Shown here in pieces: positions 5,504-36,079 of a DNA stretch of 64,000 nt (positions are counted from its first letter, which is position 1; each line of letters opens with the position of its first letter). The position numbers and the translations under genes are program-made. The notes under the pieces are model-generated. The model was given only the letters and a program-made list of their open reading frames with translations, ran no database searches and was not told the origin of the DNA. Source of the stretch: Bacteroidia bacterium (GTDB lineage Bacteria > Bacteroidota > Bacteroidia > J057 > JANWXU01); contig JANWXU010000006.1 in the NCBI GenBank assembly GCA_025057395.1, forward strand, positions 1 through 64,000, in the 5' to 3' direction.

Positions 5504-6340
5504 ATGGAAAACCAAATTTGCTTAATTACAGGTTGTAATACGGGAATTGGTAAAGTAACTGCCATTGAATTAGCCAAAAGGGGGGCTACTATTATTATGG
5601 CCTGCCGCAACCAAGTAAAAGCTGAAAGGGCAAAAGTAGAGATTATTGCCCAGAGTCAAAACCCCAGAATAGACCTCTTCTTAGTAGACTTATCTCTACA
5701 AAGCTCCATTCGAAAATTTGCCGAAGCTGTGCACAAAAAATATAACAAAATAGATATCCTTATCAATAATGCTGGTGCAATTTATTACCACCGCTACGTT
5801 ACCCCCGAAAAAATTGAGCTAACCTTTGCTGTTAACCACCTAGCTTATTTTTTGGTAACCCACTTGCTTTTAGACCTTATAAAAGCTGCGCCCCAAGGAA
5901 GAATTATTAATGTCGCTTCGAGAGCCCACCAAGGATATACTATCGACTTTAATGACTTAATGGGCGAAAAAAACTATTCTCCTTTCAAAGCCTATGGACA
6001 GTCGAAGCTAGCTAATATTATGTTTACTTACAAGCTCGCAGAATATCTACAGGGAACAAAAGTTACTGCTAACTGCTTACATCCAGGACTTGTAAATACA
6101 GAATTTGCTCGTGATATGCCTTTCTGGTTTCGAATGATTTTTACTTATTTAGGCTTAACGCCTGAAAAAGGAGCCGAAACTACAATTTACTTGGCTACTG
6201 AACCCTCTCTTGCTGGCGTTACGGGAAAATATTTTTACAAAAAAAAGGAAGCTAAAACCTCGTATATTTCCTATGACAAAAATATACAACAACAACTTTG
6301 GGATATAAGTCTAAAACTTGTGGGTATACATCAATTTTGA
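5504..6340 (+). CDS. Short-chain dehydrogenase/reductase (retinol dehydrogenase-like)
   Basis: TGCNTGIGKVTA nucleotide motif, NNAG, YGQSKLAN active site. Confidence 0.9.
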   Translation: MENQICLITGCNTGIGKVTAIELAKRGATIIMACRNQVKAERAKVEIIAQSQNPRIDLFLVDLSLQSSIRKFAEAVHKKYNKIDILINNAGAIYYHRYVTPEKIELTFAVNHLAYFLVTHLLLDLIKAAPQGRIINVASRAHQGYTIDFNDLMGEKNYSPFKAYGQSKLANIMFTYKLAEYLQGTKVTANCLHPGLVNTEFARDMPFWFRMIFTYLGLTPEKGAETTIYLATEPSLAGVTGKYFYKKKEAKTSYISYDKNIQQQLWDISLKLVGIHQF

Positions 6341-6538: not shown

Positions 6539-9361
6539 ATGCAAAACGTGAGTACTGCTAGTTCTTCTTATCTGGTAAGCCATTATAACGCTTCTCAACT
6601 AAGAACAGATACCTGGAACCGCTTAAAGCACAAGGCGCTTCTTCTAAATGAAATCTATAAAAATGCTCAAAAGAAAAAAAATTTACTCCTAGAAGTTATT
6701 ACTAAAGTCAAAGAGTATCTAAATATCCTAGAGCAAGTTGAAAATTATTTTGCTTTTCCAGGAAAAGAAAGATTTAGTGATATTAAAAAACTTTTTGAAA
6801 GAGAAGATTATCGCCTTTTTGCTCATCGGGTAGTAAAAATCGTAAATATTCTGTTTAGTGAAGGATACAGACAAGTACCCGCCTGGCAAATACGTCTTGA
6901 TGATGATTCTCTAGCTGCCTCCTTTTCAGTAGGACAACACTCTACAGCGGCAATTAATAGGCACTATTTTGAAGTGCTCTATGTCGCTAACTTCACGCTG
7001 GAAGAAGAAAAAGACATAAGAGCACGCCTTCTAGCTATGCAACAAGAAATTACAGACTTTTTTTATGATATTGTCTTTGTGCCTAGCTTCGAAGACGCCC
7101 TTATCGCCATTAATTTTAACTACAATATCCAAAGCTGTGTAATTCACTATGGCTTTAATCTTAAATCTTCGATGCCCTTAGGACAATTACGAGATTATTT
7201 TAATATAGAAGAAGAAGAAGAATGGATAAATGATAAATTTTCAATGGAATATAGTTCACGTTTAGGAAAAGTTTTGCATCGTTTTCGTCCGGAACTAGAT
7301 CTTTACCTGATTACAGAAGCCCTAGTCGAAGATTTTGCCACTTTCGATACTCATCAAAGTTTTCGAAGAGTTTTTTATGGCAAAGAAAATTTTTTAGAGC
7401 TTCATTTAAGCATCTTACGTGGTATCGATGAGCGCTATGAAACACCATTTTTTAACGCCCTCAAAGCTTATAGCCAGCGCCCCACAGGAGTATTTCATGC
7501 TATGCCTATCTCAAGAGGAAATTCAGTATTTCGCTCTCATTGGATACAAGATATGGGGCATTTTTACGGCACTAATATATTTTTAGCAGAAACTTCTGCT
7601 ACAACTGGTGGTTTAGATTCACTATTGCAACCTACAGGACCGCTAAAAAAAGCACAAGAAAGAGCTGCATATGCTTTTGGTGCTCAATATACATTTTTTG
7701 TTACTAACGGTACTTCTACTGCTAATAAAATTGTAGTACAGGCCCTAGTACAACCGGGTGACATAGTTCTAATAGACCGTGACTGCCATAAATCTCACCA
7801 CTACGGTTTAGTACTTAGCGGCGCATATCCCATTTACTTGGACTCTTATCCTGTACAGCAATATTGTTTATATGGTGCTGTGCCTCTAACAGAAATAAAA
7901 AGAAAATTACTTACGCTCAAAAGAGAAGGGCTATTAGATAAAGTAAAAGTCCTTTTGCTTACCAATTCTACATTTGATGGTATTGTTTACCACGTGGAAA
8001 AAGTAATGCTAGAGGTACTGGCTATCAAACCTGATATGGTATTTCTATGGGATGAAGCATGGTGGGGCTTTGCTCGCTTTGTGCCTACTTACCGCCAAAG
8101 GACAGCTATGCACGCCGCTAGTACTATTCTCGAAAAGCTTCAAAGTAGTGAATATCGTGCTAATTATTTGTTATATAAACAAAAATTGGAGGAACTAGAA
8201 TCACAACCAGGATGGAATAAAGAAGAATGGATGATCAATAATCCTTTATTACCAGATCCTGATAAAGTTCGAATACGCGTCTATGCTACCCAATCTACCC
8301 ACAAAACCCTTACCTCTTTGCGCCAAGGGGCTATGATTCATATTTATGATCAAGATTTTAAACTTAAAGTAGAAGATGCTTTCCACGAAGCTTATATGAC
8401 CCACACCTCTACTTCTCCTAACTATCAAATTTTGGCTTCCTTAGATATTGCTCGAAGGCAAGTAGAACTTGAAGGCTATGAAATGGTACAAAAATGTATT
8501 GAAAACGCCATGAGCATCCGCGAAAAGCTTAAGCTCCACCCTACCATTCGCCAAATGTTTACTCTATTGGGCCCCAAAGATATGATTCCTGAAATTTACC
8601 GTCCTTCTAAAATTGAATATTATTACGACCCAGAATTAGGATGGGGAAAAATGTATGAAGCATGGAAACAAGACGAATTCGTACTAGATCCTACCCACAT
8701 CACCCTATTCACTGGCAAAGCAGGTATTGACGGTAATCTGTTTAAGAACGAATATTTAATGAATCGCTACAGCGTACAAGTAAATAAAACTTCTATCAAC
8801 TCTGTACTATTCATGACTAACATTGGCACTTCTCGAAGTGCTGTAGCTTTTCTCATTAGTGTACTAAGTAAAATTGCACGCTCCCTAGTAATTGAACAAA
8901 GCCAGTTCTCCAGGGAAGAGCAAGCTGTACATCAAAAAAGAGTAGAGCAACTAACCCACAACCTTCCTCCCTTACCAGATTTTAGTAGCTTTCATCCCGC
9001 CTTCCGTCCATATGAAAATATTAGTGCCGGCGATATACGCAAGGCTTATTTCCTAGCCTTTCAGGAAGATAATTGCGAGTATATTCCTATAACAGAAGCA
9101 TTATATGCTGTTGAAAATGAGCAAACACTTGTTTCAGCTTACTTCGTAATTCCGTATCCCCCGGGCTTTCCTATACTAGTACCAGGTCAAGTTATAACTT
9201 ACGAAATTCTATCTTTTTTAAAAGCTCTAGATGTTAAAGAAATTCATGGTTATAAGCCTGAAATAGGACTAAAAATTTTCAAAGAAAAAGTTCTTGCTGA
9301 ATATATTTCTAGTGAAAAAGTTACTAATGGACAAGCCAATAGGCACATAACCCTGGGGTAG
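6539..9361 (+). CDS. PLP-dependent Orn/Lys/Arg-type decarboxylase with long N-terminal region
   Basis: 940 aa; ETSATTGGLDSLLQPTGPLKKAQE, TNGTSTANKIV, WDEAWWGFARF, PLP lysine motif ATQSTHKTLTSLRQGAMI, family C-terminal domain. Confidence 0.9.
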   Translation: MQNVSTASSSYLVSHYNASQLRTDTWNRLKHKALLLNEIYKNAQKKKNLLLEVITKVKEYLNILEQVENYFAFPGKERFSDIKKLFEREDYRLFAHRVVKIVNILFSEGYRQVPAWQIRLDDDSLAASFSVGQHSTAAINRHYFEVLYVANFTLEEEKDIRARLLAMQQEITDFFYDIVFVPSFEDALIAINFNYNIQSCVIHYGFNLKSSMPLGQLRDYFNIEEEEEWINDKFSMEYSSRLGKVLHRFRPELDLYLITEALVEDFATFDTHQSFRRVFYGKENFLELHLSILRGIDERYETPFFNALKAYSQRPTGVFHAMPISRGNSVFRSHWIQDMGHFYGTNIFLAETSATTGGLDSLLQPTGPLKKAQERAAYAFGAQYTFFVTNGTSTANKIVVQALVQPGDIVLIDRDCHKSHHYGLVLSGAYPIYLDSYPVQQYCLYGAVPLTEIKRKLLTLKREGLLDKVKVLLLTNSTFDGIVYHVEKVMLEVLAIKPDMVFLWDEAWWGFARFVPTYRQRTAMHAASTILEKLQSSEYRANYLLYKQKLEELESQPGWNKEEWMINNPLLPDPDKVRIRVYATQSTHKTLTSLRQGAMIHIYDQDFKLKVEDAFHEAYMTHTSTSPNYQILASLDIARRQVELEGYEMVQKCIENAMSIREKLKLHPTIRQMFTLLGPKDMIPEIYRPSKIEYYYDPELGWGKMYEAWKQDEFVLDPTHITLFTGKAGIDGNLFKNEYLMNRYSVQVNKTSINSVLFMTNIGTSRSAVAFLISVLSKIARSLVIEQSQFSREEQAVHQKRVEQLTHNLPPLPDFSSFHPAFRPYENISAGDIRKAYFLAFQEDNCEYIPITEALYAVENEQTLVSAYFVIPYPPGFPILVPGQVITYEILSFLKALDVKEIHGYKPEIGLKIFKEKVLAEYISSEKVTNGQANRHITLG

Positions 9362-9390
9362 TAGGGTAGAAAAAAAATAAAAAAATAATA

Positions 9391-11082
9391 ATGCTAGAAT
9401 TTTGGAATTGGCAGTGGAAGTTTTTTAGAAATTGGATACACACATGCTATCATCTTTTTTTTAGTACATATAACTTTTTTGTAAAAGTACTAGCACCACC
9501 CTTAATAAAAAGCAACCCAACTTTGGAAATACAACCTAAACAACAATTATTAAAACTACCATATGAAAATCATAAAAAATCAACAATTCATACTAATAAA
9601 CTAATGCAAGTTATGCCAGGGCAAAATAAACGTATATTAAAAGGTCTACCTGAAATTCGAAGATTTTTCTTTAAAAATTCTACGCCTATTTACTTCATTA
9701 GCCCTACTAACTTCAACTTACTAGGGCTGGATGAATGGGTAAAAAGTTTTAAATACATTTCTTATATCGACTGTTATGATAAGCAGCATCCCAATGTATT
9801 TGTTCCTAGTGAAAAGCCTCATGATCTTTTTGAAAGTATCGAAGAGGTGAACAACTACCTCTTAGAACACAAAGAAGTGGTAGATTATATCAATAAAAGG
9901 GGACCAGGCGGAATTGCACTTTTTCTAATGTTCGACGAAAAAACCGAATCCCTTTGCCAGGAACTTGATTTAAAAGTGGGCTTCCCTTCAGCAAAACTAA
10001 GAAACTATGTTGATAATAAAGTAGTAACTACCCGAATTGCTGAAAAAGCAGGAGTTCCTTGCGTACCTAATGTTTTAGGAAAAGTATCAAACTATGAGTC
10101 CTTGCTTGGGCTAGCAGGAGACCTGGGTACAGACTTGGTAGTTCAACTTCCTTACGGAGATTCCGGTAATACTACTTTTTTTATATCTTCTTCAGAAGAT
10201 TGGGAAAGATATAAAGATAAAATCACTGCGGAGCCAGAAGTGAAAATTATGAAACGAATTAATTGTCGCGGCTCTGCTATGGAAGCTTGTGTAACAAGAC
10301 ACGGAACTATCGTAGCTCCCCTAATGACTGAACTAATTGGCTTTAAATCTCTAACGCCCTACAAAGGGGGATGGTGCGGCAATGAACTTTATGCAGATGT
10401 CTTTACTCCCGAAATACGAGAACAAGCTAGAAAATATACAGAAAGCTTTGGTAATGCCCTCCGTGAAGAGGGATACATTGGCTATTTTGAGCTAGATTTC
10501 TTAATTGATACTGATACACAAAAATTATACTTAGGCGAACTTAACCCACGAATTACCGGCGCTAGCTCTATTACTAATCATGCAGTTTTTGCTCTTGCTG
10601 ATATGCCCCTGTTTTTATTTCACCTGATTGAATTCATGGACGTAGACTATGAAATAGATGTAGAAGAAATCAATCAGCGCTGGAATGACCCTGATAATAT
10701 CGATACCTGGAGTCAATTGGTACTTAAAAGAACAGAGGAATCCTTAGAATGGGTAACTCAAGCTCCCCCCACGGGCATTTGGTCAATGGATAGAAATGGA
10801 GATATCAAATTTTCTCGCTTTGATACTCACCGTAGGGCTGTAGAAAATGAATGGGAAGCTTTCTTTTTGCGCATCATTAAGCCGGGAGATGTATGGTACA
10901 AGGGAGCTGACTTAGGAATATTGGTAACTCGAGGAAGGTTAATGACCGATGATTTTAAGCTTAATGCCCGTGCCCATGCCTGGATAAGTGGATTACAACA
11001 ACACTTTAAAACTACCCCCTATGAACCCCATTATTCTTATAAAGTACCTTCTGAGACTTATGAACCCTTTAAGCTTCTATAA
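9391..11082 (+). CDS. ATP-grasp (biotin carboxylase-like) ligase
   Basis: 563 aa; FPSAKLRNYVDNKVVTTRIAEKAGVP..., VVQLPYGDSGNTTFFI, LGELNPRITGASS (metal/ATP-binding core). Confidence 0.85.
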   Translation: MLEFWNWQWKFFRNWIHTCYHLFFSTYNFFVKVLAPPLIKSNPTLEIQPKQQLLKLPYENHKKSTIHTNKLMQVMPGQNKRILKGLPEIRRFFFKNSTPIYFISPTNFNLLGLDEWVKSFKYISYIDCYDKQHPNVFVPSEKPHDLFESIEEVNNYLLEHKEVVDYINKRGPGGIALFLMFDEKTESLCQELDLKVGFPSAKLRNYVDNKVVTTRIAEKAGVPCVPNVLGKVSNYESLLGLAGDLGTDLVVQLPYGDSGNTTFFISSSEDWERYKDKITAEPEVKIMKRINCRGSAMEACVTRHGTIVAPLMTELIGFKSLTPYKGGWCGNELYADVFTPEIREQARKYTESFGNALREEGYIGYFELDFLIDTDTQKLYLGELNPRITGASSITNHAVFALADMPLFLFHLIEFMDVDYEIDVEEINQRWNDPDNIDTWSQLVLKRTEESLEWVTQAPPTGIWSMDRNGDIKFSRFDTHRRAVENEWEAFFLRIIKPGDVWYKGADLGILVTRGRLMTDDFKLNARAHAWISGLQQHFKTTPYEPHYSYKVPSETYEPFKLL

Positions 11083-11108
11083 TTAGGTAGCCGTAAAAAG
11101 GGTAAAAA

Positions 11109-12077
11109 ATGAATTATATTTATTTGCAAACCCTCTATGAAACGCAACCTGGCGCCAAATGGCAAAATTTTTTCAATACACATTGGCCTAATTACAAAAA
11201 GTGGTATTTAAGTAAAGGCGAAAAACAAAGGCCCGGTTTTTTAACATGCCAAAAACAACTTAAAAAGTATATGCCTGAACTTTTTCCTATCTGGGAAAAA
11301 CTGGTAGAACTTGCGGGAGGCGGAGACTTGCAGGCTCGTTTTCTGAGCCTGTATAATCCCCCTCCCTTTGTTGCTGGCTGCAGCCAAATGGTATGGTTAC
11401 AAGAACCCCTAGCTCTGGTGCGAAATTATGACTATTCTCCTCATCTTTTTGACGCCACCTTGTTACACACTCAGTGGTGCCAGCCTGTAATTGCCGTTTC
11501 AGACTGTTTATGGGGCGCTTTAGACGGAATTAATGCCGCAGGATTATGTGTCTCTCTGGCTTTTGGGGGCAGTCAAAAAACAGGTGAGGGCTTTGCTATT
11601 ACCCTAATTTTACGTTATCTTTTAGAGTGCTGCTACAATGTAAATGTAGCTTGCCAGGCTTTACAGAAAATTCCTTCTCATATGGCCTATAATGTATTAC
11701 TTCTAGATAGCAATGGCAACCATATGCTCGCTCAATTAGCTCCTGAACAAGAGCCCCAATTTTCTAAAGCTCTTTTTTCTACAAATCATCAGTGCAATTC
11801 CCAATGGTTGAAATATTTACAAATTAGCCAAACTTATGAACGATACCAATACCTTGAACACTTATTTTCTACTCCCACTTTAAACCTAGATTCAATAATT
11901 AGAGCTTTACTAAATCCTCCCCTTTATAGCACCCGTTTTGATAGAGGCTTTGGTACGTTATATACTGCAGCCTACTATCCTACTTATTTATCTGCTACTT
12001 TTCATTGGCCAGGTTTAAAATTAGAAAGAAATTTTTCTTCTACCGACGAACCAGCTTTTCATATTCAATACACCTAA
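11109..12077 (+). CDS. C45-family autoproteolytic acyltransferase/hydrolase (AAT / carcinine hydrolase-like Ntn fold)
   Basis: AGCSQMVW putative nucleophile Cys after about 90-aa propeptide, followed by LVRNYDYSP, WGALDGINAAGLCVSLAFGG, FSTNHQ. Confidence 0.8.
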   Translation: MNYIYLQTLYETQPGAKWQNFFNTHWPNYKKWYLSKGEKQRPGFLTCQKQLKKYMPELFPIWEKLVELAGGGDLQARFLSLYNPPPFVAGCSQMVWLQEPLALVRNYDYSPHLFDATLLHTQWCQPVIAVSDCLWGALDGINAAGLCVSLAFGGSQKTGEGFAITLILRYLLECCYNVNVACQALQKIPSHMAYNVLLLDSNGNHMLAQLAPEQEPQFSKALFSTNHQCNSQWLKYLQISQTYERYQYLEHLFSTPTLNLDSIIRALLNPPLYSTRFDRGFGTLYTAAYYPTYLSATFHWPGLKLERNFSSTDEPAFHIQYT

Positions 12078-12106
12078 AAAGCTAGTCAAAAAATTTATAC
12101 TGCTGT

Positions 12107-13570
12107 ATGCGCAATGGGCGAATTGTTTTTTTTAACATTATTGTATTGTTGTGGGCTCTATCTTTCAATGGACAGAGTCAAAATAAAAATATTCATCGCT
12201 ATTTCGAAAAAATTAGAAATAATGAGGCTCTCCTAACCGCCTTCTTCATGCAAATGCCTAAAGGCGGAGACTTACACCATCACTTCAGTGGCTCTGTATA
12301 TGCCGAAACTTACCTGGAGTATGCAATAGAAAATAATTACTGGCTCAACCGTAATACCCTAGAAGTAGCCATTGAAAAAAAGTCAGAAGACCCAGTATGG
12401 ACACAGTTTTCCACCCTCCAAAGCGAAGGCTCTTTAAATCTTTACCGTTCAAAATTACTACAAAAATGGTCAGTTAAAGACTACAACCTTAGCAATATAC
12501 CTCCTGATAAGCTATTTTTTGAAACTTTTGCTTATTTCAGTCCTATTAGTAAACAACCTAATTGTATCGCAAAGGGATTACTAGAATTAAAACACAGAGC
12601 AAAAATTGAAAATGTAAGCTACCTAGAAACTATGCTTTCTACTGTCCCTTGCTCACCGCCCCCTCCAGGAATAGAAAAATATAACTTTCGTCTGCGCCAA
12701 ATTCAAAATCAAAGAGATACACTAGCGCTATTTAGCTTATTAGATTCTCTTTTGCCCCTATTAAATCTCGAACGCCTAGAAAACTGCGCAGAAACCTATG
12801 CCAAAAACAATAGGAGAATGCATGATAGCCTGCAGCTAGACGAGTCAGATTTTATTATTCGTTATCAAACTTACGTACATAGGCACAGCGAGCCTACGGC
12901 TTTATTTCAAAGCCTGTGGATTGCATTTGCCGCTTCCCAAAAAAGTCCTCTCATTGTAGGTGTAAATATTGTAGGAGCAGAAGACCATCCTATTGCGCTC
13001 CAAGACTACTGGCTCCATATGGCCATGTTTCGCTATTGCCATAAAAAATTTCCTGCTGTAAAATATGCTCTACATGCCGGAGAATTAACCCTCGGCTTTG
13101 TAAAACCCGAAGAACTTACTTGGCATATTCAAGAAGCTATCTTTTTAGCTCAAGCTCATAGAGTCGGGCATGGTGTTGATATTATGCATGAAAGTCAAAT
13201 TTTTGAAATTTTAAAATGGATGCACACCCAAAAAATACCTGTGGAAATTAACCTAAGCAGTAACGAATTTATCCTAGGAGTAAAAGGAAATAAGCACCCT
13301 ATTGAGTTATATTTTCAACATAAAGTACCTATTGTAATTTGCAGTGATGATGCCGGAGTTTTACGCAATAACTTTACACATCAATTTGTGCTTCTTGCGC
13401 AAAGGTATAGAAAAATTAGGTATAAGCATATTAAAGAGTTTATTTTTAACAGTCTACACTATGCTTTCATTGAAGAAGAAAGCCTTAAGAAGGCACTAAT
13501 TCAAAATCTGGAAAAACGCTTTGCTTACTTTGAAAAAAAAATACTTCAAAACTGCTATAAAAAATTGTGA
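12107..13570 (+). CDS. Secreted adenosine deaminase-like protein (ADGF/CECR1-like)
   Basis: N-terminal signal peptide; MPKGGDLHHHFSGSV, ALHAGELTLG, HRVGHGVDIM, VICSDDAGVLRN metal/active-site motifs. Confidence 0.88.
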   Translation: MRNGRIVFFNIIVLLWALSFNGQSQNKNIHRYFEKIRNNEALLTAFFMQMPKGGDLHHHFSGSVYAETYLEYAIENNYWLNRNTLEVAIEKKSEDPVWTQFSTLQSEGSLNLYRSKLLQKWSVKDYNLSNIPPDKLFFETFAYFSPISKQPNCIAKGLLELKHRAKIENVSYLETMLSTVPCSPPPPGIEKYNFRLRQIQNQRDTLALFSLLDSLLPLLNLERLENCAETYAKNNRRMHDSLQLDESDFIIRYQTYVHRHSEPTALFQSLWIAFAASQKSPLIVGVNIVGAEDHPIALQDYWLHMAMFRYCHKKFPAVKYALHAGELTLGFVKPEELTWHIQEAIFLAQAHRVGHGVDIMHESQIFEILKWMHTQKIPVEINLSSNEFILGVKGNKHPIELYFQHKVPIVICSDDAGVLRNNFTHQFVLLAQRYRKIRYKHIKEFIFNSLHYAFIEEESLKKALIQNLEKRFAYFEKKILQNCYKKL

Positions 13571-20861: not shown

Positions 20862-23800
20862 CTACTCTATAATTACCTTAGCTCGAATTGCATCCTCTTC
20901 TGATTCTAAGCTAAGGAGATAAATTCCTTTAGCAAGATGTGAAACATCAACTAAAGTTTCTACATTTTCTATCAATACCTCTTTCTGTAAAAGAAGTCTA
21001 CCCTGCATATCCCAGAGCTTAAGCTTTGTACTCTTGGGTCCATTGCCTTGAAAACGAATATAGACTAAGCCTGCGCTAGGATTAGGATAGAGTATAAAAT
21101 CAACACCAGAAGAAGTTTCTTCCCTAGCTACTCTTTGTACAAAATTTACTACACTACTCCATTGCCCTAATGTACCTTGCCGAATAGAGCAAGTCGTGCA
21201 GTTGGCACGTACCCTTACCCCGTAAATGCCATTAGGTAAGAGACCCGTAAGTTGTATTCCTTGCTGGGGATGAGGTATAAGTACCTCTTGCCATCTTTCA
21301 GTTGGTTCATTGAGCAAGCCATATGAAAGTACGTAGCAAACTATACCCGGACTTAACCCTTGAAAATTTACACTAGCCTCGCTTGCACTACGCACAGTTA
21401 CTTGTAAATTTCCAGCAATGCAACTCCGCTCATTATTATTGCTAGCTGCTGTAGTAAATATTGCTGCTTCTCCAAAATTAGCGGCTCCATAAAAGCATAT
21501 GGGCGCTACACTTACTTCATAGGTTGTAGCAGCTGACAAATTAGTAAGCACTAAATTCGTAGTAGTTACCTCTAGGTGAGTATAATTTTCTTGGCCAATA
21601 GCACGATATCGCACCCTATATCTTGAGGTTCCTGCTACTACTGGCCAACTAATTTGAGCGCGGCTTGCCTCAATGGATGTAATAGTAACTAAAGGCATAG
21701 TCCAACCCTCAGGCACTATTATTACTTCAGAACTGCTGCATCCATTATCAATATCTATAACATTTAAGAAATAAGACCCTGGTGCTAAGCCACTAAAATT
21801 ACCATGGTTTTGTTGAATAGTTCCTAAGCGGTAAAGATAGCTACCACTTCCTCCTCTCACCTGAACATTTACCTGCCCCCCTCCATCACACAAGGCTGCT
21901 CGAACTTGGGTAGTAAGTACCAAATTACTACCCACACGTAAGGCAATTGGTATACGTCGCCCTTCGCAAAGCCCATTAGCGCCACTCACATAGTAAGTGG
22001 TGGTAGTAGATAGAAAAGGCGTCTCTAAACGAGGCTCTCTACTATCTGCAAGGGGCTCTCCTCCAACAGGCTGGCTATAAAGGCGATAGCTCTTAGCATT
22101 ACCATTGATAGTGATAGTAAACACGCCTGGGCTGCAGCGCGGGGCAGCTGTAGCTGCTAAAGGTTCAACTTCTGGCTCAATTTCTACAGTTACAGGTGCT
22201 CGCATCGATTCACAACCATTCACCACCCAAGCAGCAAAGTAATTTTGAGTTTGATTCACAAACGGTATCTCAATCGAAAAAGGAGAACCCGTTTCTCCTA
22301 CCCAATTACCCTGACCATCATAAAGACGCAAAAGAAAAGAATTATTATTACCCTCCGGAGAAGGAGCGCTAATAGTTACTACTCCAGCTCCACAACGAGT
22401 AATATTCCTTAGCTGGGGCGGGGTCAGCTGAGTAAACACCCTAATAGGTAAATTTATTCTTGGAGACTCACATCCTTGCTTCCAGCTGCTTACACTAAAG
22501 CTGGTATTACCCCCTACATTCACCCTAGCGGCATAAGGTGGATTACTAGACCTTGCCACTTCTTGGCCCTGAGCATCATAATAGCGTACCTCATCTACCA
22601 TACCCGCTACACTTGCTGTCAGCGTAACTATACCCGTGCTACAGACAGTTATGGGTTCAACAATAGGGGCAGAAGGAACCAAATTCACTACTACACGTAT
22701 AGCTCGTGCTTCACTCAAACAATTACCATTTCTAGCTCGAATATAATATGTTGCACTAGTACTTATTCTTCCCCCCTCTAGGGTATAAGGAGGAATTGTA
22801 GCAACATCAACTAATTGATTATTACTATCATAAAGCAATATTTCATTTCCTATGGGTGTGCCCATTGTTGCAGTAAAACGAACCAAGCCGCCACCACAAA
22901 AATTTAAATTCTCCGCAAAAGGAGTAGCAGGCAAAACTCCTATTTGGGCAACTGCAATTGCTCTAGGACTTTCGCAGCTACCCTCTACCGAACTAACATA
23001 AAAACTAGTAGTAGTAGTCAAATTAAAAGTAAAATTAACCACACCACTCGCACTACTAGCAACTACATCACCGCCTTGCAGAGAATTATATACTCGAATA
23101 CTTTCTCCCCCCAAAGTTTGTACAGTTAAAGATACTAATCCAGCACCGCAACGACTGACACTTTCTACTCTAGGTAGCGGCGGAATAGGCAGAATAGAAA
23201 TTACTACTGGCCTTCGTTCACTTTCACAGTTAGCAGTAAAACCTGATAAATAATAAGTTGTAGTACGGTTCAAAATACCTGTTACTAATTGCACATTCAC
23301 ACTACCTGGTGCTACTACCTGAGCAAATCCGCCACTAGAACTTTCATAAAGACGAATTTCCTCTGCTCCTTGGCTACTTACCGTAAGTGTAACCGCACCA
23401 CTACCACAACGACTTACATTATTCACTTCTACTTGTGAAGGCAACGATAATATATTTACACTAACCATCTGTCGGCTACTTCTACAATTTCCATTTACGC
23501 TGCTTACATAGTATAAAGTACTGCTGCTTACAAAGGGTATACTTAATACACCCCTATTTCCTACTATTACTCCTATTAGTTGCCCGCCACTAGGGGTATT
23601 ATAAACCTCTATTCTTTCAGCATTGGTACTCGAGCTAATGCTTAAGCTTACACTTCCCGCTCCACAACGACTAACCGGAGAAACAATTGGTAAAGAAGGA
23701 ATTTCCGTAACATTTACCCTCACGGCTACTCTTGGACTTTCACAAATGCCGCTTACAGAGGCTAAATAAAAAGTAGTAGTACTATTTAGTACTGGAGTGT

Positions 23801-26800
23801 TAATAAATACAATCCTACCCCTACCGCTCGTCAATTCTACTCCTCCTGCTTCTTGGCTGTAAAGGCGAACCTCACTACCACTTTCATTATATACAGTAAG
23901 TGTTACACTACCCACACCACATCGATTAGCATTTTCGGCTATGGGCAACATAGGAACAGACTCGATTTCTACCACTGCCGGAATGCGTTCTCCTATACAC
24001 CCCGTTTGCGAAGAAAAGGGTTCTAGATAATAAGTTTGAGTTTGGAGAGTAAAAGGTGTTGTTAATTCATAGGGAAAAATATTATCGCTCCATAAGGTTT
24101 CTCCTCCTGTGGGTAAAGCATATAGCCTTACAGCATCCCCTAGGCCTGTACTCAAAAAAGCTGTAAAAGTTACGCTACCAGCTCCACATCGAACAATGCG
24201 ACTTACAGGAGCTAAAGCCGGTACAGCATGAATTTGTGCCACAGCAGCTGTACGAGCCGAGCGGCATCCAGTTCTTTTATCTTCTGCCTCAAAATACCAG
24301 GTTGTATTGGTAGTTAACAGTGGAGTTTGCAATTCATAAGGGGGTGCATCATCAAAAGCGTCTGCCGTGGTGCCCGTAGCTAAAGAATAAGCGCGCATCA
24401 CATACTCACTAGTACCTACGGCTATTACTGTAAAACTTATTCTCCCTATTCCGCATCGACTAGAATTATTTACTACAGGCGGCGGAGGTAAAGATAAAGC
24501 CGAAACATTTACCGCTACCCGCTCACTTTCACACCCTGAGCTTCTGTTTCGAAAAGCTATATAGTAAATAACACCTTCTGTAGTAATCGACGGAATAGTT
24601 AACTGCGCAGGATTACCTAAGCTTTCTGCAAGCGCCTGACCACCCCTACTTGTACTATAAAGTAAAACCTGATTTCCCTGAAAATTACTTATTGTCAAAG
24701 TAATACTACCCTGCCCGCACCGCCTAAAACTAGTACTTTCAAGTATAGGTTGGGGCGGAATTCTTTCTATATTTGCTGTAGCAGCAATTCTACTACTTGT
24801 ACAACCTGTCTTAGCATCATAACTTTCTAAATAAAAAGTTTGATCACTGGTAACATTTACTTTAAGCTCATAAGGAAAAGATTCGTCTTCGGCTAATAAA
24901 TTATCACCAATAGGTTGGGCAAATAAACGAATGCTTGTTCCTAAGGGAAAAGACATATGGGCAGTAAAAGTTACTTCTCCTACACCACAACGCCGAATAT
25001 CATTCACCCGAGGTAGCCCAGGAATAGAATGAATTACTACTTCTATATTTGTACTATTACTCTCACAATTTTGAAGTACACTTCGAAGAGAATACGTGGC
25101 CGTAGTTTCTAAAGAGGGAGTTTCTAAAATAAAAGGACTAGAACTAGCTTCAGCTATAAAGTTACCATTCCTATCATAAAGCCGAACGCCATGTACATTT
25201 TCCACTACATTAGCTGTGATATGTACCTTTCCTGCTCCGCACCGACTTAAATTTGCTACAGCAGTAGGAGGTGAAGGAAGCCTTCGTATTTCCGCCTTAG
25301 CTTCTATGCGTTCACTTTCACAGCCTGTAGTTTGGTCTTGGATGCTCACATAGTAAGTGGTAGTTGTATTAAAATATAAAGGCACTACAAAAGGAAAGTT
25401 ACTTTCTTGCGCAATAACTTCTCCACCGCTTGGAGCGTTATAAATACGTACAGTTTGTCCTGTTGCTACACCCCGTACCGTGAAACTTATATTTCCTGGG
25501 CCGCATCTAAACACAGGATCAACCTGGGGCAAAGCAGGAATTTCATGCACAGTGGCTTGTACAAAAATACGAGAACTCTCACAACCACTATTAGCAGCAA
25601 CACTGCTAATACCAAAAGTTTGATTTCTGGTAATGATAGGAGTTGTTAATTCAAATGGTGCACGAAAAGTACTACTTATCCAATTTCCATTTTCGTCATA
25701 TAGTCTTACTTCTCTTACAGGTACTTGCCCAGCAGATACACTAAAAGTTACAGCTCCAGCTCCACAACGCTGTACCGAATTTACCAAAGGCTGCGCCGGA
25801 ATCGCAAGTATTTGCACTGGCACAGCTACTCGAGCACTACTGCAACCAGTTGCTACATTGTAGCTTTGTACAAAAAAGGTTGTAGTAGAACTTATGCTAG
25901 GAGTTACTAGCTCGTAAGGCCAACTATCGTCCTTAGCTAGTGGATTACCCCCTTGCCCTGTAGCGTAGAGAAGTACACCACTAGTACCCCCACCTACAGC
26001 ATGCACGCTTAAAGTTACACTTCCTTCCCCACATCGACTTGCCCCCAAAGCATTAGGGCGCGGCAAAGGCGGATTTACAATAGCTATTGCTACTACACGC
26101 GCACTACTACAGCCCGTAATACTATTGACTACCTGAACATAGTAAGAAGTAGTTTGTAAAACACTAGGAGTTGTAAGGCGAAAAGGTGGCGTGCTAGCAG
26201 AAGCTAGTAAAACTCCTCCTACAGAAGTAGAATATAATTGAACCTCCGTGCCTTCAATTTCTCCCATTTGTATACTAAAGGTAACAGGCCCACTTTCGCA
26301 GCGGCTAACACTACTCACTAATGGAGCACTAGGAATAGGATGAATATTTATAACAACAGGTACCCTTACACTTTCGCAACCGTTTATATCTCGACTTGCC
26401 AAGTAGTAAGTGGTACTTTGGTTCAAACTGGGCGTAACCAGATGATAGGGTGCTTGATCACTTTGCGCTATGATACTTCCACCCACCATAGCATTATAAA
26501 GTAAAATTTCTCTTCCCGCTGGCGTACCCATTTGAACTGTAATAGTTACACTTCCAGAGCCACAGCGCCCTATTTCACCAGCTGCAATTGGAATCCCTGG
26601 TAGAACCTGAGAAGGGTTTACTATGGCACTTACAGGGATGCGATGGCTGCTACAACCCGTTACAATATCATGACTTTCTAAATAAAATACTGTTGTGGTA
26701 CTTACTTGCGGAGAAGCTAAAATATAGGGTGCAACGCTACTACTTGCAATTGGAAATCCACCACTAGGAATAGTATATAGGCGTATTTCACTACCTGCAG

Positions 26801-29800
26801 GATTCCCCATGCGAACTGTAAAATTTACAGTACCACTATTACCGCAGACCCCACGATTCGAACTTATGGGTGCACCAGGTATAGCAAAAACTTTAACTTC
26901 CACCTCTACTCTGGGACTTTCACACTTCGAATTTGCATGATAAGCACTTATAAAATAACGAGTTGTAGTATTCAAAAAGCCTGTTCGAAATTCATATGGA
27001 GGAGTAAGAATTGCTAAAGGAATTTCTTCTGTTCGATTAGGGTATATACGCATCTCTGTGCCACTAGGCACCCCCATAGAACCTGTTAAAGTAACTACTC
27101 CTGGACCGCACCGACTAGCAGAACTCATAAAGGGTATACCAGGCGCAGCTACCACTTGGGCTATCACTTGCCGACGTGGACCTTCACAACCTGTTAAACT
27201 ACTAAATTGAGATATATAAAAGGTAGTAGTTCTTTCTAGCAAAGGGGTCTGCAATACTCCCTCACTACCAGCAATTACTTGGATAGGTAAATCACCAGCA
27301 GATTGCGTATAAAGTCGTAGCTCTGTACCTTGAGGAGCTAAAGCCTGAGCTGTAAAAGCAATAACACCGCGACCACAACGAGCTACATTATTACTTTCCA
27401 CTTCTCCGGGTGGAGTAGTATGAATAGTGACTACTACTGGTACACGAATACTTTGACAGTTATTTTCACTAGCTCTGCTACTCAAATAAAAAGTAGTAGT
27501 AGTTTGCACAAAAGCAAGATTTAGCACAAAAGGAGGTGTAAAACTTTGAATAATAGGAACTTCCTCCTCGGGTGAAGTATAAAGTGCTACGCTATTGCCG
27601 CTTTGGGGGGTCATTTGCGGGCTAATCGATACCCCCCCTGCTCCACAGCGCCCTACTGCACTCACCACTGGAGCTGTAGGAGATAAAAGAATAGTAGCCT
27701 CCAAAGGTACTTTAGGCCCTAGGCAACCTGTTTGTATACTAAATCCTGCAAAATAAAATGTTCGTGTTTGGTTTAATACTGGCGTTGTTAGTTGCGCTGT
27801 ACTTCCAGAGCCTACCACTATTGGTGAAAAACTAGCCTGATCTTCAAACATTTGTATTTCGGTACTCCCTGGAGCTATTATACTGAAGGTTACCACCCCA
27901 CTGCCGCAACGCCTTACTGAACTGCCTAGTACTGCTGAGGGAGCCTCTAAAATGTTTACTAATACAGGTACACGCTGCGAAGTACACCCTGTCCCCTGCT
28001 GAAAACTTTCTATATAAAAAAGCTGACTTTGCTGAACATTTTCCAAAGTGAACAAAGCTGGATTTTGACTAGTTTGGGCAATAGGCACTCCTCCTGTAAG
28101 TAAAGTATATAAACGTACACCAGAAACCTCCGGAGTATACAAAGCAGTTATAGTAACGCTTCCTGGACCGCAACGACTAATATCATTACTTTGCGGAAGT
28201 GCCAGTGGCGGCAATACGGTCAAAGCAACAGGAGTTCTACTGCTTTCACAATTATTATTATCAAATAGAGCTACATAATAAGTACTGCTAGTACTAATAG
28301 CTAGTGTGAATATATAAGGACTAAAAGTACGACTTTGTAAAGGAAGACCGCCACTAGGCTCACTATAAAGGCGAACTTCGCCTCCAGTTGTTACACCGGT
28401 AACACTAATTTCCACTAAACCTGCACCGCACCTTTGAATAGGCAGAGCATTTACACTATGGGGCAATTCTCGAACTTCTACTAGCACAGGCACACGGCCA
28501 CTAGAGCAATTGCCTGATAAGTCATAACTTTCTATAAAAAGGGTAGTACTGGTACTTAAGCCAGTACTTAGCAAATAAGGAGCCTCATTGCGACTATCTA
28601 GCATTTGCCCCCCTTCTGCCGCGCTCCAAAGTCTTACTCCTAAGCCCGAGCCGCTTACTTGCACTGTTAAAGTAACCACACCACTTCCACATCGAACTAT
28701 ATTTTGTGAAATTGGAGGCACGGGTATAGGATGAACTTTTGCTACAATAGGCTGCCTTCCACTACTACAGCTTGTGGCCGTATTTTGTAATTCTACAAAA
28801 AAAGTAGTAGTAGTAGAAACATCCGCAGTCAAGACATAAGGCGAAGTATTACGCACAACCAAAGGCGAGCCGCCACTTGCTTGAGTATATAAATAAGCCA
28901 CGTCTCCTTGTTGAGCATTATGAATAGTAAAACTAACTTCCCCTGCTCCACAGCGGCGTACTTCTGAGCCACCTATATTAATAGTTGCTGCCTGACTTAC
29001 AAAAGCTCTTACTGGCAAGCGAGGAGAAGTACACCCATTAGCAGGTTCAATATTTTCTATATAAAAAGTTTGAGTTTGAGTAAGGAGTGGCGTTATAAGG
29101 GTATAAGGCGCAGTATCATCTAATGCAATAGGCTGTCCTCCTGTAGCCTCTGTATATAAACGAACCTGACTCCCCGAAGGATTCCCCAAAGCTACTGTGA
29201 ATGTTACAGCACCTGTGCCACACCGAGTAACATCAACGCTGCTTACTTGCCCTAAGCTGCTACTAAGAGTAACAGTAGCCAAAACACGGCTGCTTTCACA
29301 AGTAGTTTGAGTATTACGTTGGCTAAAGTAGTAATTAGCACTTTGAATAGCCGAAACTCTTATTTCAAAAGGCGCAGAAGTAATACTTACTAAATTTCCT
29401 CCCTGCGGCGCATCGTACATAAGGACTTCATTTTCAGTTACTCCTGTTACTGTAAAAGTAACTACTCCCGGACCGCAACGGCTTACATTTTGCACCGTTA
29501 CATTAGGTAAGTTTTGCAAAAACACCCTTGCTACTACTTCTATAGCATTACTTCGGCAGAAAGAATCTTCACTTACTATATAATAAGTAGTATGAGTGGT
29601 TAAAGAAGAAGTAGTAAGCTCAAAAGGAAATAGGCTATCGCTAGCTACAGCAATAGGAGCATTGAGCGAGCTATACATTCGATAAAGTTGCTTACTAGTA
29701 AAATTATCAATTACTGTAAACGTAACAGAGCCGCTTCCACATCGAGTTACTACGCTTTCTTGCAAAATAGGAGGAGTAGGCAAATTACGGTAGATAATTT

Positions 29801-32800
29801 TTACAGGAACAAAATTGCTAGCACAGTTGCCCTGCGGATTTATAGCTGCTATGTAATAAGTAGTATGAGTAGTGATATTAGGAATAGTAAAAACAAAGGG
29901 AGCAGTAGCACGAGTTTCTAAAGCCTGACTTCCTATTTGACTATAAAGACGAATAACAGCACCAGCAGGCATGCCCATTTGAGCAGTAAAAGTAACAGGA
30001 CCAGGACCACAGCGAATAATCTCTATAGGCATAGGGTCTCCCGGATTGCCAATAGCAGAAGCGGTGACTTTAATACGCGGAGTTTCACAGCCAGGCTCAA
30101 ACTGGGTATCTTCAAAAGCTGCTGCTACCCAAAATTCCTGTACCCCACTAACAGATGGAGTAACCAATTCAAAAGGAAAAGAGCTATCCGTAGCAATAGG
30201 CACTCCCCCTTTTTCTTGAGTGTATAGTCGCGCAATTTGGCCCGCCGGATTGCCCATTTGTACAGTTATAGTAAGCGGTCCTGCATCACAGCGCCCTACA
30301 TTAGCAGCAGTAGGACGTTCGGGGCAATCGGAAAAAACAGCAATTGCCTTTTCATTAAATTCCATGGTTAAACCTGGCGCACTTCGTTGAAAAGGCCCTA
30401 ACCCTGAAACTTGTGCAGGAAAGGCTTGCCCTCCACTACCTGGTAAATCTATCCAGCCCGTTGGGCTGCCCCCGCTAATAAAGCCTCTAACACGGCAAAA
30501 ATCACGACTAAAAGCACTCCCTTCTCTTTCCGGACGCCACTGAACTCGTAAAGTAACATTATTGGTAGTTTGCGTACAAGTAGTAGGTGCTGGGGGTGTT
30601 AAATTAGGTCGCTCTTCTGTAACAAACCAAGTAGTTTTTACTACATTTTTGAAAGGATTGCCAAAAATTGTAGGAGGTTCAAAAACTTGGTCTTGTACTC
30701 GAATAGCAAAATTATCTCGCACGCCCAAGTTTTGTAAAGTTAGAGGAGCGTAATAAGTAGGAGTACCTACAGCAAATTTAAATTCACTGGCATCGCCCCG
30801 GCATTGGTCATCCGGAGGTGTAGGATATTCAGCTACACCTCCACCTAAACAATCCCGTACTAAGCGTCCTGTACTATTAGTAACCACCCAGCTACTATCA
30901 CTTCCGCCTGTGAGCAGGGCATTAGGAGGGGGCGTATTACAAGTTAGACGCAAATCATTATTATTGAGCCAAATACGCCCTCTTTGTAAGTCCAAAAGTC
31001 GATTAATTCGAAAAGGGCGTAAGAGCTGTAAATATTGGTCAATCTTATCGGTATCCATTCGCAAATTATCTATCATTGGATTACCATTTACGGAACTGGT
31101 AAAAACTACATTTTTGCGAATGGTATTCATAAAGTTTTCATTATAAGGTTGTGAGGCCTGCCCGGGATTGGGTACTGTAGGCATTGGCTCTAAAAGTCTA
31201 TCATAAATAAATACAGTTCCTCCTTCATTTACTAGGTCTGCTCCTTCATGCACTCTTCCATAAACACCAATATTAGGATAAGGACAGCCTGCAGGAAAGG
31301 GCGCAGGATAAGGACAAGGGTTAGCCCCTGGCGACTGCGGACTGCCCCTATCTACATACAAATAACTAAAGTCTCCCTGAAAGCCGTTATTAGGATTACC
31401 ATCAATATCCGTCCCCGAAGCTAACCATGGAGTATAATCAACATAAAATTTATTAGCATCGTTAATTGGATTAGCACCACAAACTAAACCCCTTGAAAAA
31501 TTATCTGCTAAAACAGCAATAGTAGCAGGGTTAGCATCTCCCCACCAATTACCACTCATATCTAAAATGCCGTTGGCTGGTCTTTGTCCTCCACTTTCTA
31601 GAACAGCTCCTACTTTACCAATTGTCAGGTGATTATTGAATACTTTAATCGAAGAAAGATTTCCGGGAGTAACATTTGAAGAAACCCAAACGACCGAATG
31701 AAAATTCCTAATAAAATTATTTTGAAACAATAATACTCGAATAAAATTATTCTGAGTAATATTTTCAAACTGAAAAGCAGCGCCAAAATCACCCGGAGAA
31801 TTGTTATACTGCCCATCTAAGGTATTATATCGAACATACCAGTCACCGTTTGCATCCCCGTTATTGTAGCGGAAACTCATAAAATGCAAGCCGCGCAAAC
31901 CGCAATCATTGCAGTTTAAACAATTACTGCCACAATTATCATAGCAAGCACTTTGAGCAGTACTAATTATAAGGCTAGCTGGTACTAGCCTAGCTATATA
32001 AGTATTGTATTCAAAGTAATTTACTCCCTCCACATCATCAATAAAAATAGCTCGGTTAGCAGCTATTGTAGTTCCGTTTTTGATATAATAGTATAATTGA
32101 TTATGTCTTATTACGTGCCCTTCCACTTTAGCACTTCCGCTTTTGTTATCTAGGGCTAACAAGCGCCCCCTTCCACCATTGTTGTAGTTTACATCATTAT
32201 CATTAATAAAGGTATTATATTCGACAAAAGTATTACGAATACGAGATTGTCCTAAGTTTCCACCAATGGCATCTCCTACTATTCTTAAATTGTAAGACTC
32301 ATTATCCTCGATGTGGTTATAACGTAAATAAGTACTATCAGCTTTGATAATTGAATTGGCATAAGGAGCATATACTCTTATAGAGACCCCTATTTCCCCC
32401 CCTTTGATAAAATTATTCTTAATATCTCCTTTATAAAAGTTAGTAGCATAAATTCCATAAATGTTACGAGAATTGGCAGCAGTGTAAGTATAACGCCGCT
32501 CTAGATTCGTTATAAAGGGAGAAATACCATTAAAGGTGGAAAGACCACCAGGTTCTTGCCCACCTCCAAAAACAATATTTCCTACTAGCAGAATATTATT
32601 CTGGATTTGAACATTTTGAAAAGCAGTACGAGTAGAACTAAAAAAAATAGTAGCAAATTGACAATTTTCAATTTTGTTATCACGTATAAAAATGCCAATA
32701 TTGGGGTCATTAGGGTTAGGAGAAAATCCGCCAAAAGCAGCTTCCTCATTTGTTACTAAAATTCCTACTCCATTCTCAGGGGAGCGGCCATTATTAGCAG

Positions 32801-33544: not shown

Positions 33545-34767
33545 TTAATTTTTAGAATGTTTGATAAACTCTGCTTTTTGCAAAAAGTGAGAAGCTTTTT
33601 CATAGTCTCCTAGCTTTTCATATACCTTTGCCATATCCTCATAAATTAATCCTAGGAGTTGTTTTTGATTTTGCTCCTCTTTATCTAAGCAAATTGAAAC
33701 AGCCTTTTGGTAGTGCTCCAAGGCTTTACCATACTCCCCTTGGCTATTGTAAATAGAAGCTATATTTTGACATATTGCTGTTGCTGCTTCCAAAGCTCTT
33801 TCGTCTAATAAATCTAATAAATGGATAAAGCTTTTTGATAATAATACAAAGCCTGGGCGCAGTTACCTTTTTTAAGGTATATGGCTGCTATATTCCCATA
33901 GAATGACGCTACATACTCATCTTTTTCACCCCACAACTCTAAACAAATTGCTAAAACTCTCTGGTAGTAATCCAGAGCTTTATCATAATTGCCCTGGGCA
34001 AGATACAAAAATGCTATGTTCTGGTAAACTACTGCTACTTCCTCATTTTTTTCACCCCATAATTCTAAGTAAATAGCTAGGGCTTTATAATGATACTCTA
34101 TCGCTTCGTCGTATTTAGCATTATTATGGCACATAGTTGCCATGGTCCTATAAGCTAATGCTACTTGTTCACTTCTTTCCCCCCAAAACTCTATACTTAA
34201 AGCTAGAGCTTTACCGTAATACTCCAGCGCTATATCGTAATCCCCCTTCTTGTTATAAGCCGTTGCCATATCCTTATAAATCTCCGCCACTTGCTCCCTC
34301 TTTTCCGCAAATACCTCTAAATGAATTGCCAAAGCTTCGTGGTAGTACTCTAAACTCTTATCATAATTACTTTCATTAAGATACACACGGGCTATATTTT
34401 GATAGGCTGAAATTACTTTCTCACTTTTTTCACCCCACAACTCTAATATAATATATTCTCAAAACTTTCTAATAATACCTTAAAGCCTCCTCATACTTAC
34501 CGTTGATAAAATACATAGCTGCCACATGCATATACAGTAGCACTGCTTGCTCACTTTTTTTCCCCACAATTCTAAGCATATGGCTAGAACCTTCAGATAG
34601 TACTCTAAAGCCACATCGTAATTCCCGTTTTGGGTACAAGCCATTGCCATATCCTTATAAATATCTGCCACTTGCGCACTCTTTTCTCTATGCAGCTCTA
34701 TAGCAACTGCTAAAGCCTTCTGATAATGCTCTAAAGCTGTATTGTAATTAATTTGATTCGACTCCAC
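33545..34767 (-). pseudogene. TPR-repeat protein gene, disrupted by frameshifts and a nonsense codon
   Basis: TPR coding continues through three ORFs in different frames (34890-34480, 34440-33814, 33793-33545); apparent GTG start at 34767 (VESNQINYNTALEHYQKALAVAIELH) matches the start of the upstream TPR gene. Confidence 0.65.
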
Positions 34768-34786
34768 GATTCTATTTTTATAATGC

Positions 34787-36079
34787 TTAAAAAGTTCTAA
34801 AAACCACATACAAATTCCACGTCTCATCATACTCACCATTTTTATAGTGGGCAATTGCTTTATTTTTATAATCCCTTGCCGCTGTATCACCTTTCTTTAT
34901 TAATAAATATTTGTAACAATACTCTATAGCCTCCGTACATTTACCGATTTTATAATAAACGGTTGCTATAGCATCAAACAACGGTGCTACCTGCTCATTT
35001 TCCGCCCCATATATCTCCATGTAAATCTTCAAAGCCCTCATATAATACTCTAAAGCCTCAGCATAGCTAGGTTTATATTTATCAAAACAAACGGTGGCTA
35101 TTTTCTTACATAATTCTGCTACCTTCTCAATATTCTCGCCATACAAACGTGAATAAATCTTCAAAGCCTTCTTATAATACTCTAGAGCATCGATATAGCT
35201 ATATTTATCAAAATAACTTGTTGCTATTTCTTCATACACTTCTGCTACCTGCTCACTCTGCTCCCCATATAGCTCCAAATAAATTGCTAAAGCCTTCGCA
35301 TTATATTCTAAAGCCTTTAAATACTGCCGATCTATAAGATAACTAGTTGCTATCTTCCTATACACTTCTGCTACCTGCTCACTCCGCTCCCCATATAGCT
35401 CCACACAAATTGCCAACACCTTTTTACTATACTTTAAATTATTATACTTTAAAGCCCTAATATAATTTCTTCCACGCAAATAGTCCTCATATGTTTCGGC
35501 TGACCGCTCACTCCCGCCCCCATATATCTCCGAATAGACCCGTAAAACCGCCTCATTACTCTCCAAAGCTTCAGCAAAACTCCTGTAACAAGGCTCTATC
35601 TCTTTATACAATCCTGCTACCCACTCACTCTGCTCTCCATGTATCTCTAAGTAAATTTTCAAAGTTTTCTTGTAATACTCTGAAGCCTTGAAATACTGCC
35701 GATTTATAAGATAACTAGTTGCTATCTTCCTATACACTTCAGCTACCCGCCCGCTCTGCTCCCCATATAGTTCCACATAAATTGCCAAAGCCTTTTTATT
35801 ATACTCTAAAGCCTTGATATACTTGCTTTTACGAAAATAATCACTTGCTATATCCTCATATGCTTTGGCTACTTGCTCACTTCGCTCCCCATGTAGCTCC
35901 GAATAAATCTTCAAAGCCTTCTCATAATACTCCCAAGCTTTGGCGTAACTACTGTAATAAGACGCTATTTGCCTATACAACCCTGCCACTTGCTCACTTT
36001 TTTCTCCATGCAGCTCTATGGCAGCCTCTAAAGCTTCCTGATAATGCTCTAAAGCCGTATTTTTTTGATTCGAATGCAT
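34787..36079 (-). CDS. Tetratricopeptide repeat protein
   Basis: 430 aa; multiple ALEYYKKALxIYxELYGEQSEQVAEVYxxIATSY units. Confidence 0.8.
   Translation of the reverse strand: MHSNQKNTALEHYQEALEAAIELHGEKSEQVAGLYRQIASYYSSYAKAWEYYEKALKIYSELHGERSEQVAKAYEDIASDYFRKSKYIKALEYNKKALAIYVELYGEQSGRVAEVYRKIATSYLINRQYFKASEYYKKTLKIYLEIHGEQSEWVAGLYKEIEPCYRSFAEALESNEAVLRVYSEIYGGGSERSAETYEDYLRGRNYIRALKYNNLKYSKKVLAICVELYGERSEQVAEVYRKIATSYLIDRQYLKALEYNAKALAIYLELYGEQSEQVAEVYEEIATSYFDKYSYIDALEYYKKALKIYSRLYGENIEKVAELCKKIATVCFDKYKPSYAEALEYYMRALKIYMEIYGAENEQVAPLFDAIATVYYKIGKCTEAIEYCYKYLLIKKGDTAARDYKNKAIAHYKNGEYDETWNLYVVFRTF

Follow-up and report, generated by a model that had tools for sequence, protein, structure and literature searches.

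In a 64-kb stretch of DNA from a Bacteroidia bacterium (positions 1 to 64,000 of contig JANWXU010000006.1, assembly GCA_025057395.1), hereafter referred to as the window, three adjacent genes constitute a real conserved functional unit, which we tentatively describe as the core of a catabolic module that degrades a basic amino acid via a temporary amide formed with ATP. The three genes, all located on the + strand, encode a decarboxylase of the Rv2531c type, which is dependent on pyridoxal phosphate (PLP) and shares the aspartate aminotransferase (AAT) fold (DC, 6539..9361, 940 aa), an ATP-grasp ligase of the NCBIfam family PRK06524 (ATPG, 9391..11082, 563 aa) and an N-terminal nucleophile (Ntn) autoproteolytic amidase or acyltransferase with the catalytic residue Cys91 (C45, 11109..12077, 322 aa). 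The trio had been noticed in a sequence-only reading of the window as part of a run of four same-strand open reading frames separated by 26-29 nt, the last of which encodes an adenosine-deaminase-like protein (ADA), and its coordinates were reproduced in our analysis with intergenic gaps of 29, 26 and 29 nt. Its family assignments for all four genes agree with profile searches against Pfam and NCBIfam, and the catalytic motifs are, as it had stated, retained in each protein, with the STHK sequence of DC, the ATP-grasp residues, Cys91 and the motifs of ADA being intact.

The sequence-only reading had treated the first three genes as a functional unit and had suggested a survey of gene neighbourhoods, in which confinement to close relatives would speak against it. 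In this survey, the opposite was found, with the trio co-occurring beyond close relatives and across phyla, and with families that fit decarboxylation, ATP-dependent ligation and amide cleavage. A scan of the ATPG protein against 85,462 species genomes provided 80 named loci, and co-occurrence in Bacteroidota was assessed in an even sample of 398 genomes. Among these, the ATPG family scores above its cut-off in seven and DC is present in eight, the latter being the same seven plus one genome (G230), where DC sits at the edge of a contig. The corresponding hypergeometric p of 2.7e-14 serves as a guide only, since related genomes are not independent. In the 50 loci of the Halomonas/Marinobacter/Oleiphilaceae type, a region within 9 kb of ATPG contains DC in 49, C45 in all 50 and a nitrilase-superfamily carbon-nitrogen hydrolase (NIT) in 49 cases, and the gene order NIT-ATPG-C45-DC is found in 49 of them. 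The cassette is also present in Flavobacteriales (L006, L078) and Myxococcales (L009); in Phycisphaerae (L082) and a metagenome-assembled genome of the Bacteroidia (L048), it lies at contig ends. Occurrences of the unit span Halomonadaceae, Marinobacter, Rhodobacteraceae, Myxococcales, Phycisphaerae and other Bacteroidota, and the adjacency of the three genes is kept across at least four phyla. DC is encoded elsewhere in 9 of 14 ATPG-bearing genomes of Rhodobacteraceae and Actinomycetota, and in five Rhodobacteraceae these DC regions show the arrangement NIT-DC-ATPG-C45 and hence a second copy of the cassette. No earlier description of this operon was found in the searched literature, whose coverage mostly excluded subscription journals.

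Clustering of the neighbourhoods identified three partners of the trio, which besides NIT include a GabT-type class III transaminase (TA), closest to gamma-aminobutyrate (GABA) transaminase, and an aldehyde dehydrogenase (ALDH) of the succinate-semialdehyde dehydrogenase (SSADH) type. The full set consequently comprises the six genes TA, NIT, DC, ATPG, C45 and ALDH, which are collinear in this order in five Bacteroidota genomes, follow the same order without C45 in two more and are arranged as ALDH-TA-NIT-DC-ATPG-C45 in the Myxococcales locus. The most constant members are DC, NIT and ATPG, while C45 can be absent. The partners are located outside the window and were for that reason missed by the sequence-only reading, which had proposed a route to an amine conjugate. 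With NIT, TA and ALDH found, the interpretation shifts towards catabolism, where the conjugate would be an intermediate.

The phylogeny of ATPG adds to this interpretation. In a maximum-likelihood tree, the DC-linked ATPG proteins form one clade (support 100/100) that is separated from three other forms. The second form is found in Actinomycetota together with C45, the third in Rhodobacteraceae with a tripartite ATP-independent periplasmic (TRAP) transporter, a small protein of no known family, C45 and NIT, and the fourth in Actinomycetota including mycobacteria, where ATPG is accompanied by a homologue of the 6-aminohexanoate-dimer hydrolase NylB in all 8 loci, 3 of which also encode a copper amine oxidase and an amino-acid permease. 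In contrast to the cassette, DC and ATPG are separated from each other in the genomes of the mycobacterial relatives, where the NylB-like hydrolase is found next to ATPG, and C45 was not detected in the single genome searched (G446). That another amidase can take the place of C45, and that an amine oxidase is present, supports the idea that ATPG forms an amide which is broken down afterwards, with the oxidation of an amine in between.

Several features of these paralogous clusters were observed in addition. In Rhodobacteraceae (L059, L061, L064, L084 and others), a second cluster of ATP-grasp ligase, C45 and nitrilase lacks DC and includes the TRAP transporter, and a protein of about 115 aa without Pfam match is found in 12 of 13 of these loci. 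A further copy of C45 is located behind a ribbon-helix-helix-type regulator in L061. We found no support for an identity of the Rhodobacteraceae cluster with the homarine operon. In Actinomycetota (L063:6238-12751, L065, L079), an amino-acid permease, a copper amine oxidase, an ATP-grasp protein of the PRK06524 clade and a NylB-like hydrolase are grouped together, and this type of cluster is possibly a natural setting for NylB homologues.

In the proposed pathway, DC would decarboxylate a basic amino acid, with lysine as favoured substrate, to a diamine, and ATPG would use ATP to join a carboxylic acid to one of its amines, yielding an N-acyl-diamine that is unable to cyclise after oxidation. 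The free amine end would subsequently be oxidised to an aldehyde and further to an acid by TA and ALDH, with copper amine oxidase acting in mycobacterial relatives. Cleavage of the amide by C45 and/or NIT, or by the NylB-like hydrolase in the mycobacterial relatives, would then release an omega-amino acid, either 5-aminovalerate or GABA, and recycle the acid, before a GabT-type TA and an SSADH-type dehydrogenase would turn the omega-amino acid into a dicarboxylate. Gene content, gene order, co-occurrence, family membership, catalytic residues and lineage-specific swaps were computed, while the substrate, the acyl donor, the order of the steps and the direction of the pathway are what we infer.

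As substrate, lysine is favoured, though not proven, followed by arginine or ornithine and finally by diaminobutyrate, the latter being kept as a candidate because of the doe genes neighbouring the cassette in halomonads. Hints at a basic amino acid or a polyamine are provided by a binding protein scoring above the cut-off of a Lys/Arg/Orn-type model at one DC locus (L179), a PotA-like ATPase at another (L177) and an amino-acid permease beside a mycobacterial DC, which is related to cationic permeases and scores below their cut-off. A glutaryl-CoA dehydrogenase and a GabT-type transaminase are found within 10 kb of 2 of the 13 TRAP-type ATPG loci (L064 and L084), the first of which also contains a homologue of succinate-glutarate CoA-transferase, and these genes hint at a C5 route. 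As a genome-level marker of lysine use, glutaryl-CoA dehydrogenase was discarded as uninformative, since it is present in 296 of the 398 Bacteroidota. Both GabT and GabD of E. coli act on 5-aminovalerate as well as on GABA (PMC6265302).

The proposed route resembles known systems without coinciding with any of them. In the E. coli Puu pathway and the Streptomyces GlnA2/GlnA3 system (PMC5403932, PMC8998196), a diamine is likewise N-acylated at the expense of ATP, its free end is oxidised and the amide is hydrolysed, and the final conversion by a GABA-type transaminase followed by SSADH is shared as well. Their ligase (PuuA/GlnA3) has a glutamine-synthetase fold and their amidase is of the PuuD type, whereas the cassette, which is thus distinct from a Puu pathway, combines an ATP-grasp ligase with C45 and nitrilase, or a NylB-like hydrolase, and includes its own decarboxylase. 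The E. coli route via LdcC/CadA, PatA, PatD, GabT and GabD similarly starts with an AAT-fold decarboxylase and proceeds via a transaminase and a dehydrogenase to an omega-amino acid, which GabT and GabD convert to a dicarboxylate, but contains neither an ATP-dependent step nor amidases (PMC6265302). DC is only distantly related to the E. coli lysine decarboxylases and belongs to a longer family, in which an Asn replaces E526 of LdcI. The DavBADT route for lysine in Pseudomonas uses a nitrilase-family amidase, a GabT-type transaminase and an SSADH-type dehydrogenase as does the cassette, but where the former relies on the flavin adenine dinucleotide (FAD)-dependent monooxygenase DavB, the latter contains a PLP-dependent decarboxylase and an ATP-grasp ligase. 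No DavB-type FAD lysine 2-monooxygenase, which would lead to 5-aminovaleramide, is contained among the identified recurrent neighbours. An analogy is also offered by conjugation and deconjugation of the Ebony/Tan type and by the C45 carcinine hydrolase, with an amide being formed from acid and amine by a ligase and subsequently hydrolysed by a C45 enzyme, although Ebony resembles a non-ribosomal peptide synthetase and in this respect differs from ATPG. If true, the proposal would describe a third bacterial way of handling basic amino acids and diamines besides glutamine-synthetase-like ligation and the oxidation of free diamines. It joins three orphan families with separate annotations, namely Rv2531c-type decarboxylases, PRK06524 and a clade of C45, with a clade of nitrilases in one predicted pathway, the standard names of two of them being misleading, and it provides, to our knowledge, the first genomic pathway context for Rv2531c.

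The properties of DC bear on the order of the steps. With 261 bits compared to a cut-off of 27, the protein belongs to the superfamily of Orn/Lys/Arg decarboxylases (OKR_DC_1, PF01276), and it aligns over its full length with M. tuberculosis Rv2531c (PDB 9n0n; E=2.8e-238 across residues 12-922, about 896 aligned profile positions), a protein of known structure (PDB 9n0n/9n0o) whose activity has not been clarified (PMC12910592). The PLP-binding lysine K589 (H588-K589 in the STHK motif), H420, D505 and the motif HTSTSP are invariant in 16 homologues. Equally invariant in these proteins and also found in Rv2531c is Asn749, which aligns with E526 of E. coli LdcI, whereas the position is occupied by Glu in all three aligned Ldc/Adc structures (PDB 6q6i, 6y3x and 9e0m). 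DC thus lacks the Glu that would be expected for activity on lysine, arginine or ornithine. In LdcI as well as the Lactobacillus ornithine decarboxylase, we take this Glu to contact the substrate at its distal amine, and PDB 6q6i, which is labelled as arginine decarboxylase, is presumably the lysine decarboxylase LdcA of P. aeruginosa. A search of the literature on active-site residues found nothing from which the substrate specificity of DC could be read.

The exchange at position 749 is the first of several observations that weigh against the proposed pathway. Since the change from Glu to Asn is invariant in the family of DC, a free basic amino acid should not be assumed as its substrate, and the residue would be compatible with a possible acylated or neutral one. 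By analogy to the Puu pathway, a strict scheme would require two rounds of oxidation, whereas the Bacteroidota operon contains a single TA and a single ALDH, and omega-amino acids should suit a GabT-type TA better than N-acyl-diamines. The link to glutarate concerns the DC-less paralogue of ATPG and not the DC-linked clade. C45 is either dispensable or replaced, as a homologue search detected none in three DC-bearing genomes (G003, G416 and G230). Finally, in the genome of the window itself, a TA that is 57-60% identical to those of the Bacteroidota operons (contig C168) and the C-terminal 63 residues of a cassette-type NIT, located at the edge of contig C169 where the assembly breaks, are not linked to the trio, and a search for a cassette-type ALDH found none, with the best ALDH being 36% identical. 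In G003, a protein of 236 aa is encoded between ATPG and ALDH (L131:12288-12998), in the slot that is occupied by C45 in other genomes.

Some of these observations would be accommodated if acylation preceded decarboxylation. In this unlikely alternative, which is the main rival of the proposed pathway, ATPG would acylate the side-chain amine of a basic amino acid, DC would act on the N-acylated form and the amide would be removed later. Rv2531c-type decarboxylases in general would, with similarly low probability, act on a side-chain-acylated and thus neutral substrate made by ATPG, in a protect-decarboxylate-deprotect route found in several phyla and in mycobacteria that has not been described before. 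The presence of Asn at the position of LdcI E526 in the 16 homologues and in Rv2531c is consistent with this order of events, as is the constancy of DC, NIT and ATPG compared to C45, but one Asn is no proof that the substrate is neutral, and the amine oxidase that accompanies ATPG in mycobacterial relatives would rather suit a diamine conjugate. In a variant of this scheme, DC would also be oxidative and amide-forming, so that NIT, TA and ALDH would correspond to DavA, DavT and DavD, with a single use for every enzyme of the six-gene operon. Against this variant, we know of no decarboxylase in this family that acts oxidatively and yields an amide, and Cap15, which sets a precedent for such a reaction, belongs to another PLP family.

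The features of C45 have a bearing on the direction of the pathway. The protein scores 159 bits against a cut-off of 85 for C45_proenzyme (NCBIfam), its AlphaFold model (predicted local distance difference test, pLDDT, of 93) most closely matches the isopenicillin N acyltransferase precursor (PDB 2x1c, template modelling score 0.68-0.70) and Cys91 is invariant in 26 homologues, which together assign it as a predicted Ntn hydrolase or acyltransferase that would mature by autoproteolysis. Its resemblance to isopenicillin N acyltransferase and the fact that both ATP-grasp ligases and C45 enzymes form amides in known natural-product pathways would fit a biosynthetic process, where the amine formed by DC is coupled to an acid by ATPG and an acyl group is transferred by C45 to generate a secondary metabolite or signalling amide. 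Such a role is possible with less support, and we consider it quite improbable in view of the constant partners, which are a GabT-type TA, an SSADH-type ALDH and a nitrilase-type amidase, of the uptake systems found at the DC loci of some Rhodobacteraceae and of the lack of recurrent genes for export, carrier proteins or tailoring in the vicinity of the cassette.

With respect to ATPG, the score of 765 bits exceeds the cut-off of PRK06524 (684, NCBIfam), whereas Pfam only provides a sub-threshold match to CPSase_L_D2. The residues K285, E383, N385 and R387 are invariant among homologues, as expected for an ATP-grasp ligase. In the PDB, the folds closest to its AlphaFold model (pLDDT of 83) are biotin carboxylase and PurK, which in conjunction with the NCBIfam name 'biotin carboxylase' could suggest that the protein is an N-carboxylase or carbamoyl-type enzyme instead of an amide ligase. 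This assignment appears very unlikely, since the Glu that closes the loop EMNTRLQVE of biotin carboxylases is replaced by Ala391 (and by Val in one of 25 homologues), a Biotin_carb_C domain is not matched in Pfam, neither a biotin carboxyl carrier nor a carboxyltransferase is found among the recurrent neighbours of ATPG, and the constant pairing with amidases (C45, NylB-like or nitrilase) fits an amide. On account of the replaced Glu, the name given to PRK06524 is probably wrong. At the N-terminus of the ATPG of the window, a predicted hydrophobic helix (residues 2-34; 9391-9492) and a linker modelled with low confidence are absent in most relatives, and the helix may possibly mediate association with the membrane. 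The notion that the genes are merely co-oriented without joint function, which is true for ADA and would conform with the absence of TA, NIT and ALDH beside the trio in the window, is for the trio itself refuted by the described co-occurrence and adjacency across phyla and can practically be dismissed.

Two other roles of the cassette or its decarboxylase were considered. In Halomonadaceae (L007-L081, e.g. L010:6192-17191), NIT-ATPG-C45-DC is flanked by genes of ectoine degradation, with equivalogs of DoeA and DoeB and an Lrp-type regulator located upstream and an ALDH and a transaminase downstream, and 39 of 50 gammaproteobacterial loci contain DoeA at a distance of less than 9 kb from ATPG. 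Participation of the cassette in the breakdown of ectoine was nevertheless rejected, since in H. elongata doeX directly adjoins doeC (PMC3187862) and since the loci of Bacteroidota and Myxococcales are devoid of doe neighbours. Similarly, DC is not needed as the arginine decarboxylase that feeds AguA and AguB, as the genome of the window contains, in addition to AguA- and AguB-like genes, a SpeA-like protein (466 aa, contig C10, below cut-off), and putrescine could thus be obtained without DC. The genes encoding the agmatine deiminase-like and N-carbamoylputrescine amidase-like proteins adjoin each other on another contig of this genome (L134:2582-4571; G000, contig C22).

Downstream of the trio, the exported protein ADA (12107..13570, + strand, 487 aa) scores 70 bits for A_deaminase (Pfam) and 75 bits for adm_rel (NCBIfam, below cut-off). 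With its zinc-binding and catalytic motifs LHHHF (HxH), HAGE, GHGV (GHG) and SDDAG (SDD) all present, it is predicted to be a deaminase of the adenosine deaminase or adenosine deaminase-related growth factor (ADGF) type, with scores below the NCBIfam cut-offs and adenosine as a candidate substrate. Homologues are found in 37 of the 398 Bacteroidota genomes but in none of the six other cassette-bearing ones sampled, and the gene resides beside none of the other cassette loci. ADA is for that reason a neighbour and not a member of the conserved set. The sequence-only reading had allowed for both membership in the route and mere co-transcription, and the former is not borne out. It is perhaps co-transcribed with the trio; no terminator-like sites were found on the + strand in the three gaps of the four-gene run, with such sites overall being no more frequent than in shuffled sequences. 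Upstream of DC, at a distance of 198 nt, a short-chain dehydrogenase (SDR, 5504..6340, + strand; adh_short, 128 bits) is not conserved with the cassette, as other loci contain just distant and scattered SDRs in their vicinity (22-29% identity).

Further proteins were noticed by eye in the remainder of the window. An exported repetitive protein of 4127 aa (20862-33245) combines a right-handed-helix-like N-terminus with dozens of similar repeats and a secretion-type domain at its C-terminus, and an expansin-like exported protein (44234-45208) carries a sorting-type domain at its C-terminus. Two adjoining tetratricopeptide-type repeat proteins (33814-36079) are alike in their repeats, and this region is possibly a locus of repeat expansion.

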